Positions 3,012 through 44,923 of a DNA stretch of 64,000 nucleotides are shown here, in pieces (the first letter of the stretch is position 1; each line of letters starts with the position of its first letter). The stretch lies in assembly GCF_001429285.1 (NCBI RefSeq), contig NZ_LMJJ01000044.1, forward strand, positions 26,842 through 90,841, in the 5' to 3' direction. The stretch comes from Ensifer sp. Root278 (GTDB lineage: Bacteria > Pseudomonadota > Alphaproteobacteria > Rhizobiales > Rhizobiaceae). The notes under the pieces are model-generated. The model worked only from the letters and a program-made list of their open reading frames with translations, was not told the DNA's origin and made no database searches. The position numbers and the translations under genes were made by a program.

Positions 3012-3040
3012 CTTGTGCCCCCCAGGGGCTTTTGCTACAT
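3012..3040 (+). promoter_or_regulatory. sigma70-type promoter of tRNA-Leu copy 1
   Basis: CTTGTG (3012-3017), 17 bases, CTACAT (3035-3040). This is close to the Sinorhizobium vegetative consensus CTTGAC-N17-CTATAT. The same pair and spacing occur 472 bases downstream before the second tRNA copy, while the spacers differ. Confidence 0.75.
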
Positions 3041-3076
3041 GCAGCCCCGTCGACGCAGGTCGACACCTACCACGAT

Positions 3077-3161
3077 GCGGTCGTGGCGGAATTGGTAGAC
3101 GCGCAGCGTTGAGGTCGCTGTGGGGCAACCCGTGGAAGTTCGAGTCTTCTCGACCGCACCA
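3077..3161 (+). tRNA. tRNA-Leu(GAG), copy 1
   Basis: The 85 bases fold as a class II tRNA. The acceptor stem is GCGGTCG/CGACCGC with discriminator A and encoded CCA. The anticodon stem CAGCG/CGCTG encloses loop TTGAGGT with anticodon GAG. There is a long variable arm and a T-arm with TTCGAGT. It reads CUC and CUU leucine codons. It is base-for-base identical to the copy at 3549-3633. Confidence 0.96.
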
Positions 3162-3166
3162 AAAAA

Positions 3167-3195
3167 ACCCGGCTTTGGCCGGGTTTTTTGTTTTT
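3167..3195 (+). terminator. Rho-independent terminator of tRNA-Leu copy 1
   Basis: The stem CCCGGC/GCCGGG, extended by flanking A/T pairs, has a four-base loop. It is followed by TTTTTTGTTTTT, six bases after the tRNA CCA end. Confidence 0.9.
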
Positions 3196-3483
3196 ATCCT
3201 GCCTAGCGAACACGGCGAGCTGCGCGGAATCGCGTCGCTGACACATCCCTTTTCTGGACGTTTCCAATCAAGCGTAGGCGTTTGGCACGGTGGGAAGGAG
3301 CGCGCTCTCTTTGCTGGCGAATGGCCGAAGACGAACGGGATCCCGCGCCCAACAATCGGTCTCGGCGCGGTGGCCGACAAGGTGCGCGCGCTTGATGCGC
3401 GGAAAGGCGACCTGGCCGGTTCGCTCGCAATGCGACGGGCCGCTGAGTTCTGTCATGATCGCCCGAATTGTGCACAGCCATCT

Positions 3484-3512
3484 CTTGTGCACTGCGGGGG
3501 CTTTTGCTACAT
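3484..3512 (+). promoter_or_regulatory. sigma70-type promoter of tRNA-Leu copy 2
   Basis: CTTGTG (3484-3489), 17 bases, CTACAT (3507-3512). The boxes are identical to those of copy 1, the spacer sequence is diverged, and the distance to the tRNA is the same. Confidence 0.75.
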
Positions 3513-3548
3513 GCACCCCCGCCGGCGCAGGTCGGCATCTACCACGAT

Positions 3549-3633
3549 GCGGTCGTGGCGGAATTGGTAGACGCGCAGCGTTGAGGTCGCTGTGGGGCAA
3601 CCCGTGGAAGTTCGAGTCTTCTCGACCGCACCA
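3549..3633 (+). tRNA. tRNA-Leu(GAG), copy 2
   Basis: An exact repeat of the tRNA at 3077-3161, with the same anticodon GAG and encoded CCA. Upstream similarity begins at the promoter -35 box, so promoter plus tRNA was duplicated as a unit of roughly 150 bases. The 322 bases between the two units hold no gene I can support. Confidence 0.96.
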
Positions 3634-3658
3634 AAACCGGCTTCGGCCGGTTTTTTCG
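3634..3658 (+). terminator. Rho-independent terminator of tRNA-Leu copy 2
   Basis: The stem AACCGGC/GCCGGTT with a stable TTCG tetraloop is followed by TTTTTTCGTTTTT, immediately after the CCA end. Confidence 0.9.
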
Positions 3659-3957
3659 TTTTTATCTCCAACGCTTAGGTCTTGAGCCCACCGCGCGGCT
3701 CAGCCTCGGGCCGACGCTGCAAGCCCGCAAACCTCAATACATCTTCCGACCGCACTTCGGCGTGCATAGCGCTTGCCGCCGCGGAAAAAGAGTGAACGAG
3801 CACCGCCACGTTGCAGGCGAAATGGCTTGGAATGTTATTTGGTGCTAACCTTGGCGCGGTATTCCAGAACGAGGGCCGGGCTGGAGCAGTTTTCTGGGCG
3901 CGGCGGTGGCTGGGCGACCTGCACCAATGACGAAGCCTGTTTGCTTGGGAGGTTCCT

Positions 3958-38145: not shown

Positions 38146-39030
38146 TTGGCCGTGTCCACAACTGTTTTTCCGTTTCGCCGGCTTTTTCTGGCTGCGGCCT
38201 TCGCCGCAGGCGCTTCCGCGGCTCAAGCGCAGACGTTGAAACCCTTCAAGGATGAGCTTTTCTCCTATGCCAAGGTGCTGCAACAAAATGATGGCGGCGA
38301 CGACCTGACGGTGGAATATCAGGAACTGCGCGACATCAACGAACGGGACGAAATTCCGGAACGCCGGGTGAAGCGCGCCTATGTTTCGCTGGGCGTGAAA
38401 AGCGAGCAGGTCAACGAGACGCTCGACATTGGCGGTCGCTCGCTTGACGTGACCCGCGTCGGTCCGGACCGCGGCGCTGCCTTTACGGTGATCTTCATCC
38501 ACGGCCGCGGCGGTGATCGCCGGCTCGGCATCAACGATTTTTCCTTCGGCGGCAACTTCAACCGGCTGAAAAACCTCGCCGTCGCCAATGGCGGAGTCTA
38601 CTACGCGCCGAGCGTCCGCTCCTTCGACACGGCAGGTGCTGCTGATATTGCCGGCCTGGTCAAACAGGTTTCCGAGCGTTCCGGCGGTCGCCCCGTGGTG
38701 CTGGCCTGCGCCTCGATGGGAAGCTTCATCTGCTGGGGCGTTTCGCGCGATGCCTCCGCGGTCGCGGCTCTCGGCGGCATGATGGTCATGGGGGGCGTAA
38801 GTGACCCCGATTTCACCAAGAGCGCCGCCTACAAGGCGAAGCTGCCCATGTTCTTCAGCCATGGCAGCCGCGACAGCGTTTATCCGGCCGAGAGCCAGAA
38901 AGCGCTCTATCGCACGCTGAAGGGCCAAGGCTACCCGACACGCTTCGTCCTCTTCGAAACCGGCTCGCACGGCACCCCGGTGCGCATGACCGACTGGCGG
39001 GATGCGTTGAACTGGATCGGTCGCCGCTGA
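38146..39030 (+). CDS. exported alpha/beta-hydrolase-like protein
   Basis: A 294-residue protein with a signal peptide (FRRLFLAAAFAAGASAAQA). The alpha/beta-hydrolase core has the oxyanion-side FIHGRGGDRRLGI, a nucleophile elbow VLACASMGSFICWG with Ser in a Cx-AS-MG context, an Asp region FFSHGSRDSVYP and the His region ETGSHGTPVRMTDW. It is expected in the periplasm; its substrate is unknown. The start is probably TTG at 38146 with GGGAG about eight bases upstream; a GTG at 38152 is possible. Confidence 0.78.
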   Translation: MAVSTTVFPFRRLFLAAAFAAGASAAQAQTLKPFKDELFSYAKVLQQNDGGDDLTVEYQELRDINERDEIPERRVKRAYVSLGVKSEQVNETLDIGGRSLDVTRVGPDRGAAFTVIFIHGRGGDRRLGINDFSFGGNFNRLKNLAVANGGVYYAPSVRSFDTAGAADIAGLVKQVSERSGGRPVVLACASMGSFICWGVSRDASAVAALGGMMVMGGVSDPDFTKSAAYKAKLPMFFSHGSRDSVYPAESQKALYRTLKGQGYPTRFVLFETGSHGTPVRMTDWRDALNWIGRR

Positions 39031-39157: not shown

Positions 39158-40600
39158 ATGGACGCGCGCACCGAGACACGGCACATTCCGCTGTGTGTGG
39201 ATCTGGACGGTACTTTGTTGGCCGCCGATACGCTGTGGGAAGGTGCGGCGATCATTCTCTTGCGCAATCCCCTGATGCTCTTTCCCATGCTGTTCTGGTT
39301 GGCGAAGGGCAAGGCGCGGCTGAAGCATGAGGTAGCCTTGCGTTCCGGCCGCAAGGCTCAGGACTGGCCCTACCGGCAGGCCGTCATCGATCGGCTCGCC
39401 GAGGAGAGAAAGGCGGGCCGCGAACTGGTGCTCGTCACCGGTGCTGCGCCGTCGGTCGCCAGAGACGTTGCCGATCATGTCGGACTTTTTTCCTCGGTCA
39501 TGCATTCGACCGATGCGCTCAATCTGACGAGCAGCCGCAAGCGCCAGGCGTTGGTCGATCGTTTCGGCGACGGTGCCTTCGACTATATGGGCAACAGCCG
39601 TGACGATATCGCCGTTTTCGAGGTAGCGCGGCGTGCGATCGTGGTCGCCCCGGATGCTGCGGCGGAGAAGTGGCGCCGCAATCATGACGCGGAACGGCTG
39701 GAGACCGGCAAGGTGAGCGCGCTTGCGCCGTTGAAGTCCATCCGCGTGCATCAATGGGCGAAAAACGTACTCATCGGCGTGCCGATGATCCTCAATCATG
39801 AGGTGCTGCATTTCGACGCGATCATGAGCGTCATCGTCGCCTTCTTCGCCTTCAGCTTCCTCGCCTCGGCGGTCTATGTCATCAACGATCTTTCGGACCT
39901 CGCCAATGATCGCCGCCATGCAAAGAAGCGTCACAGGCCGCTCGCCAGCGGCCAGATGTCGGTGCCGACAGCGCTCATACTTGCCGGCTGCCTCGTCCTG
40001 GCATCGCTGTCGCTGACGCTGTTGCTGCCATGGAAATTTGCCGGTGTGCTGGCGTTCTATGCCTGCGCGACGACCGCCTATACCTTCGTGCTGAAGCGCA
40101 AGCTGCTGGTCGACGTCTTCACGCTCGCCGGCCTCTACACCACGCGCATCGTTGCCGGCGCCGCGGCAACAGGAACGGAGCTCTCTTTCTGGCTGGTCTC
40201 CTTCGCGATCTTCTTTTTCCTCAGCCTGGCGCTGGTGAAGCGCTATGTCGAGCTGCATGAATTCGACGACAAGCACGGCGGCAACGTTCCGGGGCGCGGC
40301 TATCTCGCTGTCGATTTCGAGATGGTGGGGCAGGCTGGCGTCGCTTCCGCTTTCACCTCGGCTCTGGTCCTTGCGCTCTACGTGCACAGCAAGGAACTCC
40401 AGGAAATGTACACCACGCCGTGGGCGCTGTGGCCGCTTTGCCCGCTCGTGCTCTATATGTTGTTGCGCATCTGGATGCTCGCGCGTCGCGGCATGCTGCA
40501 TGAGGACCCTGTTGTCTTCATCATGCGTGACTGGCGCAGCCAATTGACCATGCTGGTCGGCGCGCTGTTGATCCTGTTTGGAGCCATCGGGCCGCAATGA
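39158..40600 (+). CDS. HAD phosphatase-UbiA prenyltransferase fusion protein
   Basis: A 480-residue two-domain protein. Residues about 10-190 form a HAD-like phosphatase: CVDLDGTLLAADTLW with the nucleophile Asp, LVLVTGAAPS and MGNSRDDIAVF. Residues about 195-480 form a UbiA-type polyprenyl transferase with eight or nine membrane helices, motif VINDLSDLANDRRHAKKRHR and the later VDVFTLAGLYTTRIVAGA. In mycobacteria a UbiA enzyme joins PRPP to decaprenyl phosphate, and a separate phosphatase removes the 5-phosphate; this fusion could do both. The next gene overlaps its stop (ATGA). ATG 39158 has GGTGG upstream. Confidence 0.88.
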   Translation: MDARTETRHIPLCVDLDGTLLAADTLWEGAAIILLRNPLMLFPMLFWLAKGKARLKHEVALRSGRKAQDWPYRQAVIDRLAEERKAGRELVLVTGAAPSVARDVADHVGLFSSVMHSTDALNLTSSRKRQALVDRFGDGAFDYMGNSRDDIAVFEVARRAIVVAPDAAAEKWRRNHDAERLETGKVSALAPLKSIRVHQWAKNVLIGVPMILNHEVLHFDAIMSVIVAFFAFSFLASAVYVINDLSDLANDRRHAKKRHRPLASGQMSVPTALILAGCLVLASLSLTLLLPWKFAGVLAFYACATTAYTFVLKRKLLVDVFTLAGLYTTRIVAGAAATGTELSFWLVSFAIFFFLSLALVKRYVELHEFDDKHGGNVPGRGYLAVDFEMVGQAGVASAFTSALVLALYVHSKELQEMYTTPWALWPLCPLVLYMLLRIWMLARRGMLHEDPVVFIMRDWRSQLTMLVGALLILFGAIGPQ

Positions 40601-41919
40601 GTTTGCAAGACCATGAAAGCTGGGGCCGCCTCGACAATCGCGCGCGGCCTGCCATTTCGCCTGACGACTATGAGGATCGCCTCGGCAAACTGGAGGCGGA
40701 AGGTTACTTGCCCTTCGGCAATGGCCGCAGCTACGGCGACAGTTGCCACAATGACCGAGGCACGCTGATCGAAAGCCGCCGGCATGGCCGGATCATCGCC
40801 TTCGATCCCGGCACCGGCATGATGACTTGCGAGGCCGGCGTGACGTTGCGCGAGGTGCTCGAGCGCGCGATCGAACATCGCTTCTTCCTGCCGGTCACCC
40901 CCGGCACGGCTTTAGTGACCGTCGGCGGCGCACTTGCCAACGACGTGCACGGCAAGAACCACCATGCGCGCGGCACCTTCGGCAATCACGTGACAGGTTT
41001 CACGCTTCTGCGCTCGAACGGGGATCGATTGACCTGTTCGCCGGGAGAGAACGCTGAACTCTACGCTGCGACGATCGGCGGCATGGGCCTGACGGGGCTG
41101 ATCCTGACCGTGGATCTGCAGCTGATGAAGGTGCCGTCGCCGCACGTGCAACAGCATGCGATCCGCTTCGATAATCTCGACCAATACTTCGCCCTCGTCG
41201 ATCGTGTCGACGAGGAGCACGAATATTCCGTTGCCTGGATCGACCAGCTCGCAACCGGAGCCCGCACGGGCAGGGGCGTACTGCTGGCCGGCGACCACGC
41301 CGACGGCTCCTGTGAACTGCCCGATATTCCCAAGGGATTGAAACTTTCGGTGCCCTTCACGCCGCCCTTCAATCTTCTGAACCGGGCAACGCTCAAGGCC
41401 TTCAACGAATACTACTTCCGCAAGGAAAAGTCCGGAGAAACCGTGGCCACGGTTCCCTGGACCTCCTATTTCTATCCGCTGGATGCGATCGGCGCCTGGA
41501 ACAGGCTTTACGGTCCGCGCGGTCTCTACCAGCACCAGAGCGTTTATCCTGCCGAGCGCGCGCCCGAGATCACCGCACAACTCATGGAAACGGCCCGCAG
41601 GGCCGGCCACGCGTCGTTCCTGACGGTTCTCAAGCGTTTTGGCGATATCGGCTCGCGCGGCGTTCTGTCCTTCCCGCGACCCGGTTTTACTTTGACATTG
41701 GACTTCGCCAATCAAGGTGAACGAACAGTAAAGCTGCTGGATGCGCTCGATCGCATCGTGGTGGAGGCAGGCGGTGCGGTCAATCCGTACAAGGATGCTC
41801 GCATGAGCCCGCAAGTCTTTGAAATGTCTTTCCCTTCCTGGAGGAAGATCGAGGCATTGCGCGATCCTGCGCTCGTTTCCAACTTCTGGAAGCGCACGGC
41901 TCTGGCTTTGCCAGAATGA
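40597..41919 (+). CDS. FAD-linked oxidoreductase related to DprE1
   Basis: A 440-residue protein of the PCMH/D-arabinono-1,4-lactone oxidase-like family, very like the mycobacterial DprE1 that oxidises C2 of decaprenylphosphoryl-ribose. The FAD-binding region has YLPFGNGRSYGDS (about 38-49) and PVTPGTALVTVGGALANDVHG, then KNHHARGTFGNHV (His131). The substrate domain has SFLTVLKRFGD, LSFPRPGFTLTLDF and NPYKDARM, with the catalytic Lys399. The position of the benzothiazinone-reactive Cys of DprE1 is Thr367. It is translationally coupled to the HAD-UbiA gene. Confidence 0.88.
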   Translation: MSLQDHESWGRLDNRARPAISPDDYEDRLGKLEAEGYLPFGNGRSYGDSCHNDRGTLIESRRHGRIIAFDPGTGMMTCEAGVTLREVLERAIEHRFFLPVTPGTALVTVGGALANDVHGKNHHARGTFGNHVTGFTLLRSNGDRLTCSPGENAELYAATIGGMGLTGLILTVDLQLMKVPSPHVQQHAIRFDNLDQYFALVDRVDEEHEYSVAWIDQLATGARTGRGVLLAGDHADGSCELPDIPKGLKLSVPFTPPFNLLNRATLKAFNEYYFRKEKSGETVATVPWTSYFYPLDAIGAWNRLYGPRGLYQHQSVYPAERAPEITAQLMETARRAGHASFLTVLKRFGDIGSRGVLSFPRPGFTLTLDFANQGERTVKLLDALDRIVVEAGGAVNPYKDARMSPQVFEMSFPSWRKIEALRDPALVSNFWKRTALALPE

Positions 41920-42012
41920 GAATGCAGACAATTTTATTCAAATAAACTTTCAAACTTCACGGAAAATCCGTCTCTTGCCCGTAAGTACATTTGCGGGACT
42001 GGGAGTAAAACA

Positions 42013-42453
42013 ATGAAATATATTCCATTCATTCTCTTTACGGTGCTTACCAACGCTGCCGCTCAGCTCATGCTGAAACAGGGCATGCTGACGCTCGGGC
42101 CGATTTCGATGACCGCTGAAACGGCGATCGTCCGGCTGTTCCAGATCGTCTTCAACCCCTGGGTCTTTGCCGGCCTCGCGACCTTCGTCATTTCGATGGC
42201 GTCGCATCTCTATGTGCTGTCGAAGGTCGAGCTTTCCTTTGCCTATCCGTTCCTGAGCCTCGCTTACGTCGCGGTCGCGGTCTTTGCCTATTTCGTCTTT
42301 CGCGAAGACCTCAATGCCTGGCGCATCGCCGGCATCGCGCTGATCTGCGCCGGAACCGTTCTTATCGCCCAGTCGGGCATCTCATCCCACGCCGATGACA
42401 AGCCGGCGGATGCAGCCGGGGTGAGCACTGCAGAATTCGGGAGCAAGTCATGA
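42013..42453 (+). CDS. SMR/EamA-type small membrane transporter (ArnE-like)
   Basis: A 146-residue protein with four hydrophobic segments: KYIPFILFTVLTNAAAQLML, VFAGLATFVISMASHLYVLS, PFLSLAYVAVAVFAYFVF and AGIALICAGTVLIAQS. The N-terminal NAAAQLMLKQGM and the central SKVELSFAYPFLSLAYV are typical of ArnE/ArnF-like members, which flip undecaprenyl-phosphate-aminoarabinose across the inner membrane. In this neighbourhood a role in moving a polyprenyl-phospho-sugar is attractive but inferred. It follows the DprE1-like gene by 93 AT-rich bases and overlaps the next gene (ATGA). Confidence 0.83.
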   Translation: MKYIPFILFTVLTNAAAQLMLKQGMLTLGPISMTAETAIVRLFQIVFNPWVFAGLATFVISMASHLYVLSKVELSFAYPFLSLAYVAVAVFAYFVFREDLNAWRIAGIALICAGTVLIAQSGISSHADDKPADAAGVSTAEFGSKS

Positions 42454-43460
42454 CACACATCATCTTTGGTGGCGACGGTTTCGTTGGCCGTCATCTGGCG
42501 GAACGTCTCGTCAAGGACGGCGAGGACGTGGTGATCGCCGATATCGTCAAGTCCGACCTGCCGCATTACGGCCGCGCCCGCTTCGTCCATTGCGACGTCA
42601 CTGACCTGAAGGCTGTACAGAAGGTCGGCATCGGTCCCGATGACATGGTCTACAATATGGCGGCCAAGATGCTGTCGCCGCTGCAGATCCGCTCGAAGCG
42701 CTGGGAATTCTTCTGGCCCGTCAACTATTACGGCGCCGAAAACATCATGAAGGCCATGGACGCCGCCGGCGCATCGCGCCTGGTGCAGTTCACCACCGAC
42801 ATGATCTACGGCCACACGGTGCAATCGCCGCAGACCGAAACCCATCCGGCAAAGCCGCTCGGCGAATACGGCAAGTCGAAATGGGCGACCGAGCAGCTTG
42901 CGGTGCAATGGCGCAAGCAGGGCATGAACATTTCGATCTTCCGCCCGCGCCTGATTATCGGGCCCGGTCGTCTCGGCATTCTCGAGAAGCTGTTCAAGCT
43001 GATCGACATGAACCTGCCGGTGCCGATGATCGGCTCGGGCAAGGTGCCGTATCAGTTTATCTCGGTCTTCGATTGCGCCGAAGCTGCGCGCCTTGCCTGG
43101 AAGGGTGGCGTGCCGAATGAAGCTTACAATCTCGGCTCCGACAATCCGCCCTCGGTGCGCGACCTGCTCGGCAATCTCATCAAGCACGCCGGTTCCAAAT
43201 CGTTCCTGCTGCCGACGCCCGCCTTCGCGGTCAAGCAGACGCTGGCCTTCTTCGATCTGATCAACAAGCCGATCATGGATCCGGAGCAGTATCTGATCGC
43301 CGACGAGATGTGCGTGCGTGAGACCGGCAAGCTGAAGCGCGAGCTCGGATGGCGTGCGGAATACAATGATGGCGACATGCTGGTCGCCGCCTATGACGAA
43401 TATCGGGCAAAGAAAATGGGTGCCGCGGCCACCGCCGCCTTCGCCGTGCCGGCCGAATGA
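42450..43460 (+). CDS. NAD-dependent epimerase/dehydratase (extended SDR)
   Basis: A 336-residue extended SDR. The Rossmann motif is FGGDGFVGRHLAERL (about 5-20). Catalytic residues are in LVQFTTDMIYG (Thr) and EYGKSKWATEQLA (YxxxK). FRPRLIIGPGR and YQFISVFDCAEAARLAW are typical of sugar-nucleotide epimerases. The substrate is unknown; in this cluster it may reduce, epimerise or oxidise the lipid-linked or nucleotide sugar. It overlaps the transporter gene at its start and adjoins the aminotransferase gene at its end. Confidence 0.88.
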   Translation: MTHIIFGGDGFVGRHLAERLVKDGEDVVIADIVKSDLPHYGRARFVHCDVTDLKAVQKVGIGPDDMVYNMAAKMLSPLQIRSKRWEFFWPVNYYGAENIMKAMDAAGASRLVQFTTDMIYGHTVQSPQTETHPAKPLGEYGKSKWATEQLAVQWRKQGMNISIFRPRLIIGPGRLGILEKLFKLIDMNLPVPMIGSGKVPYQFISVFDCAEAARLAWKGGVPNEAYNLGSDNPPSVRDLLGNLIKHAGSKSFLLPTPAFAVKQTLAFFDLINKPIMDPEQYLIADEMCVRETGKLKRELGWRAEYNDGDMLVAAYDEYRAKKMGAAATAAFAVPAE

Positions 43461-43471
43461 GGGGAGACACC

Positions 43472-44923
43472 ATGCTGGACATACCGAACCGTATCGCCGT
43501 TGCCGCCCCTTCGCTCGATGGTGGTGTGACAAAGCCCGAACTGATCACCGTGGAACAGGCAAAGGCCATGTCGATCGGCGACATCACCACGGCTTTCAAG
43601 GAGCATCTGAACCCCGGACAGCTTCACTTCATGAAGCTTCTCGGCTTCCACAAGGTGAAGATCGAAAGCGCCGAGGGCATGTTCTACACCGACCAGAACG
43701 GCCGCAAGATCCTCGATTTCTTCGGTGGCTTCGGCTCGCTGGCCTTCGGCCATAACCATCCCCGCATTCTTGAAGCGCGGCAGAAGTTCCAGGACGAGAA
43801 GCGTCACGAGATCGCTATCGCCTTCATGTCGCAATACGCGGCGGCGCTGGCGAAGAATATCGCTGCCTGCTCGCCGGGTGACCTCGACATGGTCTTCCTC
43901 GGCTCGTCCGGCTCGGAAGCGATGGAGGCTGCCGTCAAGCTCGCCGAGCGCGCCGCCGGCTCAAAGCGGCCTAAGGTCGTCTATGCCGAGAATTCCTTCC
44001 ACGGCAAGACCAAGGGTGTACTCGCCATCACCGACGGCCAGCTCTATCGCGCCGACTTCAAGCTCACCGACAATACGGTCCGCGTGCCATTCGCCGATAT
44101 CGACGCGGTGGAAAACGCCTTCAAGTCCGATCCTGAAATCGGTGTCATCGTGCTCGAAACCATCCAGGGAGGCGGCGGCATCATCCAGGCGCCGGCCGAG
44201 TATTGGCAGAAGCTTCGCGCGCTCTGCGACAAGTACGGCGTGCTCTGGGTCGCCGACGAGGTGCAGTGCGGTTATGGTCGCTCCGGCCGCTTCTATGCGT
44301 TCGAGCACTATGGTGTCGTGCCTGACGTGACAGCGCTCGCCAAGTCGCTCGGCGCCGGCAAGGCAGCCGTCGGCGCGATGATCGCGCGTCGCGAAGTCTA
44401 TATGAAGGCCTACGGCACGTCGAAGACCGCAATGATCCATGCCATGGCGACCTTTGGCGGCATGGGAGAGGCCTGCGTGACGGCAATCGAAGGCATCAAT
44501 GTGCTCTATGACGAGCACCTGATCGACCGCGCCGCCGACAGCGGCAACTATCTCATCGATCGCCTGCAGGCGCTGAAGGAAAAATACCCGAAGATCATCA
44601 AGGACGTTCGTGGCCAGGGTCTGATGGTCGGCCTGGAGTTCCAGGACTTCAGCCAGACGCTGCCGATGGTGCTGCGCCCCGTCGTCTCCATGCTTGACGA
44701 CAAACTCAAGGGTTCGCTGTCCGGCTTCATCGGCGCGCTGCTCCTACGCGACTACGATGTGCTGGTGGCCTTCACCGAATACAATCGCAACGTCATCCGG
44801 CTCGAGCCGCCGCTGATCTGCGAGCGCGCTCATGTCGACCAGTTCATCGCGGCGCTCGACGACCTGCTCGGCCGCGGTATCGTGCGCATCGTCAAGGATT
44901 TCGTCGGCAGCCAGATCGGCTGA
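43472..44923 (+). CDS. class III PLP-dependent aminotransferase
   Basis: A 483-residue class III aminotransferase. PLP-binding features include FLGSSGSEAMEAAVKLAERA (phosphate loop), AENSFHGKTKGVLA, LWVADEVQCGYGRSG (the Asp that pairs with the pyridine N) and VTALAKSLGAGKAAVGAMI with the Schiff-base Lys. The family usually transfers omega-amino groups of ornithine, putrescine or similar to an aldehyde, so it could aminate an aldehyde or keto product of this gene cluster. ATG 43472 has GGGGAG before it; an ATG at 43457 overlaps the previous stop and is also possible. Confidence 0.9.
   Translation: MLDIPNRIAVAAPSLDGGVTKPELITVEQAKAMSIGDITTAFKEHLNPGQLHFMKLLGFHKVKIESAEGMFYTDQNGRKILDFFGGFGSLAFGHNHPRILEARQKFQDEKRHEIAIAFMSQYAAALAKNIAACSPGDLDMVFLGSSGSEAMEAAVKLAERAAGSKRPKVVYAENSFHGKTKGVLAITDGQLYRADFKLTDNTVRVPFADIDAVENAFKSDPEIGVIVLETIQGGGGIIQAPAEYWQKLRALCDKYGVLWVADEVQCGYGRSGRFYAFEHYGVVPDVTALAKSLGAGKAAVGAMIARREVYMKAYGTSKTAMIHAMATFGGMGEACVTAIEGINVLYDEHLIDRAADSGNYLIDRLQALKEKYPKIIKDVRGQGLMVGLEFQDFSQTLPMVLRPVVSMLDDKLKGSLSGFIGALLLRDYDVLVAFTEYNRNVIRLEPPLICERAHVDQFIAALDDLLGRGIVRIVKDFVGSQIG

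Follow-up and report, generated by a model that had tools for sequence, protein, structure and literature searches.

A cluster of Ensifer sp. Root278 with a class III aminotransferase beside genes of a predicted polyprenyl-phosphate-pentofuranose pathway

Described pentofuranose systems and the Root278 cluster

Lipid-linked pentofuranoses fed by 5-phosphoribosyl-1-pyrophosphate (PRPP) have been described in a few bacterial systems, with which we compare here a five-gene cluster at positions 39158 to 44923 of a 64,000-nucleotide stretch (the window) of Ensifer sp. Root278. The mycobacterial decaprenylphosphoryl-arabinose (DPA) pathway (Rv3806c, Rv3807c, DprE1, and DprE2) is the first of these. 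The cluster appears to share its PRPP transfer, dephosphorylation, and DprE1 oxidation, but it fuses the HAD phosphatase to the UbiA transferase, comes without a DprE2 match, and contains a class III aminotransferase (AT). In tuberculosis, DprE1 is well known as a drug target. What is new is that AT and DprE2 are mutually exclusive among the DprE1 genomes of the order searched.

The three-component systems of Citrobacter youngae O1 and O2 are also PRPP-fed, with a HAD-UbiA fusion, a flippase, a GT-C glycosyltransferase and, in O2, an epimerase of the short-chain dehydrogenase/reductase (SDR) type (Kelly et al. 2024, PMC11127046). Farnesyl phosphate was used there as an acceptor. According to the available text of that paper, ORF15 is a HAD-UbiA fusion tested biochemically, ORF13 of O2, an SDR, changes ribose to xylose side chains as judged by genetics and NMR, and further candidate systems exist in unknown glycans. 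Compared with them, Root278 adds DprE1 and the AT and has a candidate flippase of the SMR type where they have MATE; we found no GT-C gene adjoining the cluster in the window. The main text of PMC11127046 does not mention an aminotransferase.

In Azorhizobium and Rhizobium sp. IRBG74, the product of the noeC(N)HOP genes is arabinose: noeC, noeH, and noeO act in decaprenyl-phosphate-arabinofuranose synthesis and noeP is their own arabinosyltransferase. No aminotransferase is mentioned in the available part of this account (PMC5080398). A first-pass annotation of the window, made from its sequence, had linked the cluster to this Nod-factor arabinosylation; going by the same part of the source, this link leads to a different branch, that of decaprenyl-phosphate-arabinofuranose synthesis (PMC5080398).

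The entry enzymes of the Root278 cluster belong to these published three-component and DprE1/DprE2 systems and are not new. The ArnB/ArnE/ArnF/ArnT pathway starts from UDP-glucuronate, with amination at C4 of a nucleotide sugar, whereas the Root278 cluster would use PRPP and C2 of a lipid-linked sugar. No description of an aminotransferase in a polyprenyl-phosphate-pentose pathway was found in the open-licence literature searched. In the available portions of the papers cited here, the ketone formed by DprE1 is paired solely with reduction by DprE2.

The cluster consists of the following genes:

39158..40600, + strand: HAD-UbiA fusion, 480 aa (NF006088 and Rv3806c matches)
40597..41919, + strand: DprE1-type FAD oxidase, 440 aa (PDB 4aut match, motifs)
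42013..42453, + strand: SMR/EamA transporter, 146 aa (EamA match)
42450..43460, + strand: extended SDR, 336 aa (Epimerase match, motifs)
43457..44923 (start may be 43472), + strand: class III pyridoxal-phosphate (PLP) aminotransferase, 488 aa (Aminotran_3 match, motifs)

Each open reading frame (ORF) starts with ATG, has one stop at its end only, and runs uninterrupted on the same strand as the others; the intergenic gaps are −4, +93, −4, and −4 nt in gene order. The ORFs and their Pfam, NCBIfam, and PDB matches confirm the five adjacent genes and the domain calls of the first-pass annotation, and the three 4-nt overlaps agree with its statement on overlapping or adjoining genes at three of the four junctions.

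The HAD-UbiA protein scored 578 bits against NCBIfam NF006088 (cut-off 351), 93 bits against Pfam UbiA, and 27 bits against Pfam HAD, which is exactly the cut-off of that model. Its best PDB match was the phosphoribosyltransferase Rv3806c (8j8j, E = 7e-25, residues 191–463). The PRPP contacts of Rv3806c, in the available text of its description, include R22, K28, Y70, N73, D77, K87, R90, Y138, K143, Y157, and K208 (PMC10994848). All 10 contacts from R22 to Y157 are identical in the HAD-UbiA protein, as counted by eye in the alignment, while no lysine is aligned with K208. The motifs DLDGT and NDxxDxxxD are present. The protein is predicted to be a polyprenyl-phosphate 5-phosphoribosyltransferase with an N-terminal HAD phosphatase, which would carry out the first two steps from PRPP to polyprenyl-phosphate-ribofuranose; at the sequence level it corresponds to the synthase with phosphatase domain of the three-component pentofuranose systems. 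The NF006088 and 8j8j matches uphold the earlier idea of a fused phosphatase and transferase; the fusion is not new, ORF15 being a precedent in the available text of PMC11127046.

The DprE1-type protein matched DprE1 in the PDB (4aut, E = 1e-68) and keeps the motifs HGKNHH, VAW, LKRFG, and KDAR. On these grounds the DprE1-type oxidase of the DPA pathway is present, with a score against NF053785 (338 bits) below the NCBIfam equivalog cut-off of 500. By homology, it would oxidise C2′ of polyprenyl-phosphate-ribose to a 2′-keto intermediate. The SDR scored 117 bits against Pfam Epimerase and the AT 287 bits against Pfam Aminotran_3 (cut-off 30.5). NF006088, 8j8j, the PRPP contacts, and the gene order all speak for a PRPP-fed polyprenyl-phosphate-pentofuranose pathway, as the first-pass annotation had it, and we consider this assignment of the cluster very probable.

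Distribution of the aminotransferase and DprE2

If the AT acts on the product of DprE1, it should be found where DprE2 stands in other genomes. The search covered 297 genomes of the order, sampled evenly from a larger group, and scored per genome up to five candidates for AT, NF006088, and DprE1 and up to nine for DprE2-like proteins. Every DprE2 candidate was scored in 16 genomes, namely 15 AT genomes (including G499) and G043. DprE1 was found in 44 of the 297 genomes (limit 1e-40, weakest match 2.5e-81), the AT clade in 14 (limit 1e-100, weakest match 4e-219), DprE2-like proteins in 30 (limit 1e-20), and NF006088 matches in 77, of which 73 were above the cut-off and some cover the UbiA half only. 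Each of the 14 AT genomes has both DprE1 and an NF006088 match, and none has DprE2. The 44 DprE1 genomes divide into 14 with AT, 29 with a DprE2-like protein, none with both, and one (G206) with neither; the thirtieth DprE2-like genome, G098, has a 76-bit match and no DprE1. The chance of zero overlap is 1.3e-10 if genomes are independent, a value that overstates the case because related genomes are not independent. Four families contain both the AT and the DprE2 types. This alternation supports the suggestion of the first-pass annotation that the AT points to an amino sugar.

No DprE2 (E ≤ 1e-15) was found among all 86 candidates scored in the Root278 genome, so that this member of the DPA pathway is missing there. 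It was likewise absent from the other 14 AT genomes with all candidates scored, apart from one stray match of 64 bits in G105. We also fetched the neighbourhoods for 40 of the 63 AT-less HAD-UbiA genomes and found DprE1 nearby in 15. Fourteen of these 15 loci have a classical DprE2-type SDR adjacent, and the other one (G043) has an SMR transporter and an SDR. Two DprE2-like copies scored 184 and 197 bits against NF053786 (DprE2), under its cut-off of 250, and 364 and 341 bits against NF005489, above its cut-off of 267.

The DprE1 relative of G206 (L219) has YGRNHH in place of HGKNHH and KTRQ in place of KDAR, and its LKRFG motif is also changed. No NF006088 match, AT, or DprE2 was found near or with it in the 297-genome survey, and it is probably decayed or re-purposed. 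Two loci, L182 and L035 (the latter on a Sinorhizobium garamanticum plasmid), carry HAD-UbiA with a GMC oxidoreductase, an SMR transporter, and a distant extended SDR (28–29% identity). These genes stand there instead of DprE1 and AT, the GMC protein possibly being an alternative oxidase.

Outside the order sample, the AT clade was found in two out of 385 genomes of a class sample, one of them the Root278 genome, and in seven out of 398 of a phylum sample at 1e-130, all seven within the same order; the three samples overlap. A scan of GTDB-220 gave 443 stretches encoding a relative, and the best 80 were kept and fetched. The five genes stand in the same order on one strand in 78 of these best 80 loci, which are mostly from Mesorhizobium and not independent, and the remaining two are truncated by contig ends. 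The order is thus conserved across relatives, which the first-pass annotation had proposed as a check, and such constancy indicates that the gene set is more than a chance grouping. The order varies among more diverse loci: L027 is divergent, L029 and L030 have DprE1 after AT, and the set of G274 is split over two contigs. In G499 the genes of DprE1 and AT share 4 nt, and in G158 they are separated by 5 nt. Among the Mesorhizobium-like genomes, three out of seven contain AT, DprE1, and HAD-UbiA, and four contain none of them.

These data bear on the notion that the cluster is an ordinary polyprenyl-phosphate-pentose pathway in which an unrelated aminotransferase hitchhikes. Class III aminotransferases occur commonly and are difficult to assign, which would allow for it. 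However, the AT is 66–86% identical across the loci compared, above DprE1 (42–56%) and HAD-UbiA (37–54%); the 14 AT genomes of the order all have the other two genes; and the AT stays in the set where this is split (G274) or re-ordered (L027, L029, L030). We regard hitchhiking as very unlikely. The PLP motifs also are intact, ADEVQ and LAK[SA]LG being kept in 16 of 16 AT loci (the Root278 window, 13 order genomes, G499, and one Neorhizobium plasmid), as in a class III enzyme.

The transporter gene also follows the division between the two types. An SMR gene is present in 15 of the 16 AT loci and in none of the 18 DprE1+DprE2 loci, while GtrA is present in none of the former and in 15 of the latter. 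SMR genes also occur in six AT-less loci (L035, L176, L182, L190, L192 of G043, and L207), so that the SMR type is no marker of the amine alone. The Root278 transporter scored 31 bits against Pfam EamA, 54 bits against NCBIfam ArnF (cut-off 99), and 36 bits against ArnE (cut-off 92). The label "ArnE-like" therefore holds as a resemblance but not as family membership, both scores lying under the cut-offs. Its conserved presence in the AT loci is in favour of the earlier proposal that it is the flippase; the gene at 42013–42453 would fill the flippase place of a three-component system, and its protein is likely the flippase of the lipid-linked pentose.

The third component, a GT-C transferase gene, was not seen adjacent to the cluster or in the set within the Root278 window. 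A homologue of one membrane protein follows the AT in 66 of the 80 GTDB loci (64 with five genes, two cut by contig ends). In Mesorhizobium, the membrane protein 3′ of the AT has a GT-C-like fold and adjoins most of the loci fetched. With this GT-C-like protein as a query, we found no match in the Root278 genome, in a search run without a positive control.

Role of the SDR and the proposed route

The first-pass annotation had assigned the place of DprE2 to the extended SDR. Polyprenyl-phosphate-arabinose would then be made, and the AT would act later or elsewhere, for example at a different carbon or on the glycan that receives the sugar. This fits the presence of the SDR gene in 14 of the 16 AT loci, with the motifs GGDGFVG and YGxSK intact in all 14 copies aligned, and the AT genomes are without DprE2, so that the keto intermediate needs another enzyme. 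But in two genomes that keep DprE1 and AT, G183 and G161, we found neither an SDR match (E ≤ 1e-20) nor DprE2 (E ≤ 1e-15). G043, from which the AT of the clade is absent and whose best class III match is 36% identical, carries a UbiA-DprE1-SMR-SDR cluster (L192) together with a DprE2-like protein of 257 bits. A 42% relative of the SDR stands beside HAD-UbiA at L207, where the 16 kb fetched contain no DprE1. Amination at a later stage would require a further carbonyl, and no oxidase that could form it is linked. Because of G183, G161, and G043, it is the AT rather than the SDR that we place in the position of DprE2; the earlier assignment is not supported by these genomes, and we consider it unlikely.

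The L207 locus (of G230) consists of the SDR relative, HAD-UbiA, and an SMR gene, with no AT, and its genome is outside the 44 DprE1 genomes; the set is possibly a minimal epimerised-pentose system.

Because 14 of 16 AT loci carry the SDR, it could also act before the AT. It would first epimerise or oxidise C3 or another carbon, followed by DprE1 and AT, and the amine would perhaps not be at C2. The available text of PMC11127046, in which an SDR determines the ribose to xylose change in C. youngae O2, lends something to this order of events, while the AT genomes G183 and G161 lack an SDR match and speak against it; we find it improbable. The SDR would rather be an accessory, optional epimerase of the lipid-linked pentose.

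Our preferred reading is that the AT aminates the ketone of DprE1 in the place of DprE2, to which we give a probability of about 0.6. The route would begin with the transfer of 5-phosphoribose from PRPP to polyprenyl phosphate by the UbiA domain and the removal of the 5-phosphate by the HAD domain, both steps suggested by family knowledge and conserved residues. DprE1 would, by homology, turn C2′ into a ketone, and the AT may then put an amine in its place, bypassing the reduction to arabinose by DprE2, as the gene alternation suggests. The amine is placed at C2 because of the known chemistry of DprE1, and the product is probably a polyprenyl-phosphate-2-amino-2-deoxypentofuranose, an undescribed amino sugar on a membrane lipid. 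Where present, the SDR would epimerise another carbon, most likely C3, as in the published system of the same kind. Finally, the SMR protein may flip the product, and a GT-C glycosyltransferase would add the sugar to an envelope glycan.

The phylogeny of DprE1 (43 rows, midpoint root) placed 21 of the 23 AT-linked rows on one side and 18 DprE2-linked rows with two AT rows on the other. The starred branches of this tree require four or more changes in the AT label, with G043 and G206 counted as without AT. A single clade of AT-linked DprE1 was rejected in the approximately unbiased test (p-AU 0.0003). In G499, AT is present and DprE1 is nested in the DprE2 lineage, while the DprE1 of G043 lies within the AT lineage; these two genomes go in opposite directions, and both fit a rule of one or the other. 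At the LTLDF motif of the Root278 DprE1, the column aligned with mycobacterial Cys387 has Thr in 14 of 16 AT-linked and Ala in 17 of 18 DprE2-linked sequences. This difference may be only a lineage marker.

Several points weigh against amination in the place of DprE2. Much of the AT/DprE2 alternation is inherited within clades; of four independent pairs drawn, three were opposite and one showed no difference (p = 0.25), and the single AT-linked clade was not rejected once G499 was removed. That genome is 91% complete, which weakens its absences, and its HAD-UbiA match spans only about the UbiA half. The absences in G183 (91% complete, about 290 contigs) and G161 (4% contamination, contig of 15.8 kb) are weaker for similar reasons. 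The DprE2-like gene of G043 (L218:8492-9229) lies apart from the sole DprE1 match of that genome, and at one DprE2 locus (L170) a class III aminotransferase outside the AT clade, 27% identical, is found about 3.7 kb away. The frequency of the SDR at AT loci belongs here too. The nearest solved relatives of the AT are 4ppm (PigE-type) and putrescine aminotransferases, which we take to act on aldehydes, and most sugar aminotransferases with ring-ketone substrates belong to the DegT/DnrJ family. The reactions and the product in Root278 are themselves predictions from the genes.

In its widest form, amination by the AT would mean that a PRPP-derived, lipid-linked 2-amino-2-deoxypentofuranose is made in Ensifer, Mesorhizobium, and other Hyphomicrobiales, that exchange of DprE2 for AT turns the epimerase pair of arabinose-donor synthesis into an aminating pair, and that a second lipid-linked aminopentose route exists independently beside Arn. 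The odds for this wider claim seem to us evenly balanced. If it is true, bacterial envelopes would gain a new type of sugar unit, the range of the pentofuranose systems would extend beyond epimers to amino sugars, and a rhizobial cluster without a known product would be given a function. The claim predicts a specific mass, that of a nitrogen-containing pentose on polyprenyl phosphate, which can be searched for directly.

Host and surroundings of the cluster

The genome of Ensifer sp. Root278 is 7.1 Mb in 44 contigs. By the aminotransferase, its nearest named relatives are Ensifer adhaerens L18 and E. sesbaniae (98%), and the host is close to Ensifer adhaerens. The G+C content of the cluster is 60.6%, compared with 61.5% for the window. 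Promoter-like and terminator-like sites showed no excess over shuffled sequence. Upstream of the cluster, on the opposite strand, is an ORF that resembles a topoisomerase upon reading of its sequence; downstream, also on the opposite strand, are YceI-like and cytochrome b561-like genes, both scoring below the model cut-offs.

An alpha/beta hydrolase gene (38152–39030) lies directly upstream of the cluster. It accompanies the cluster in 13 of the 80 GTDB loci, five examples being from Ensifer, Pararhizobium, Rhizobium, Ferranicluibacter, and one other Rhizobiales isolate; this adjacency probably reflects synteny rather than membership in the pathway. Elsewhere in the window stand two tandem copies of a tRNA-Leu(GAG) gene (3012–3198 and 3484–3666, spacing about 470). 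The sequence upstream of the gene is repeated as well (153 nt at 94% identity), and so is a hairpin-and-T tail (34 nt at 88%).

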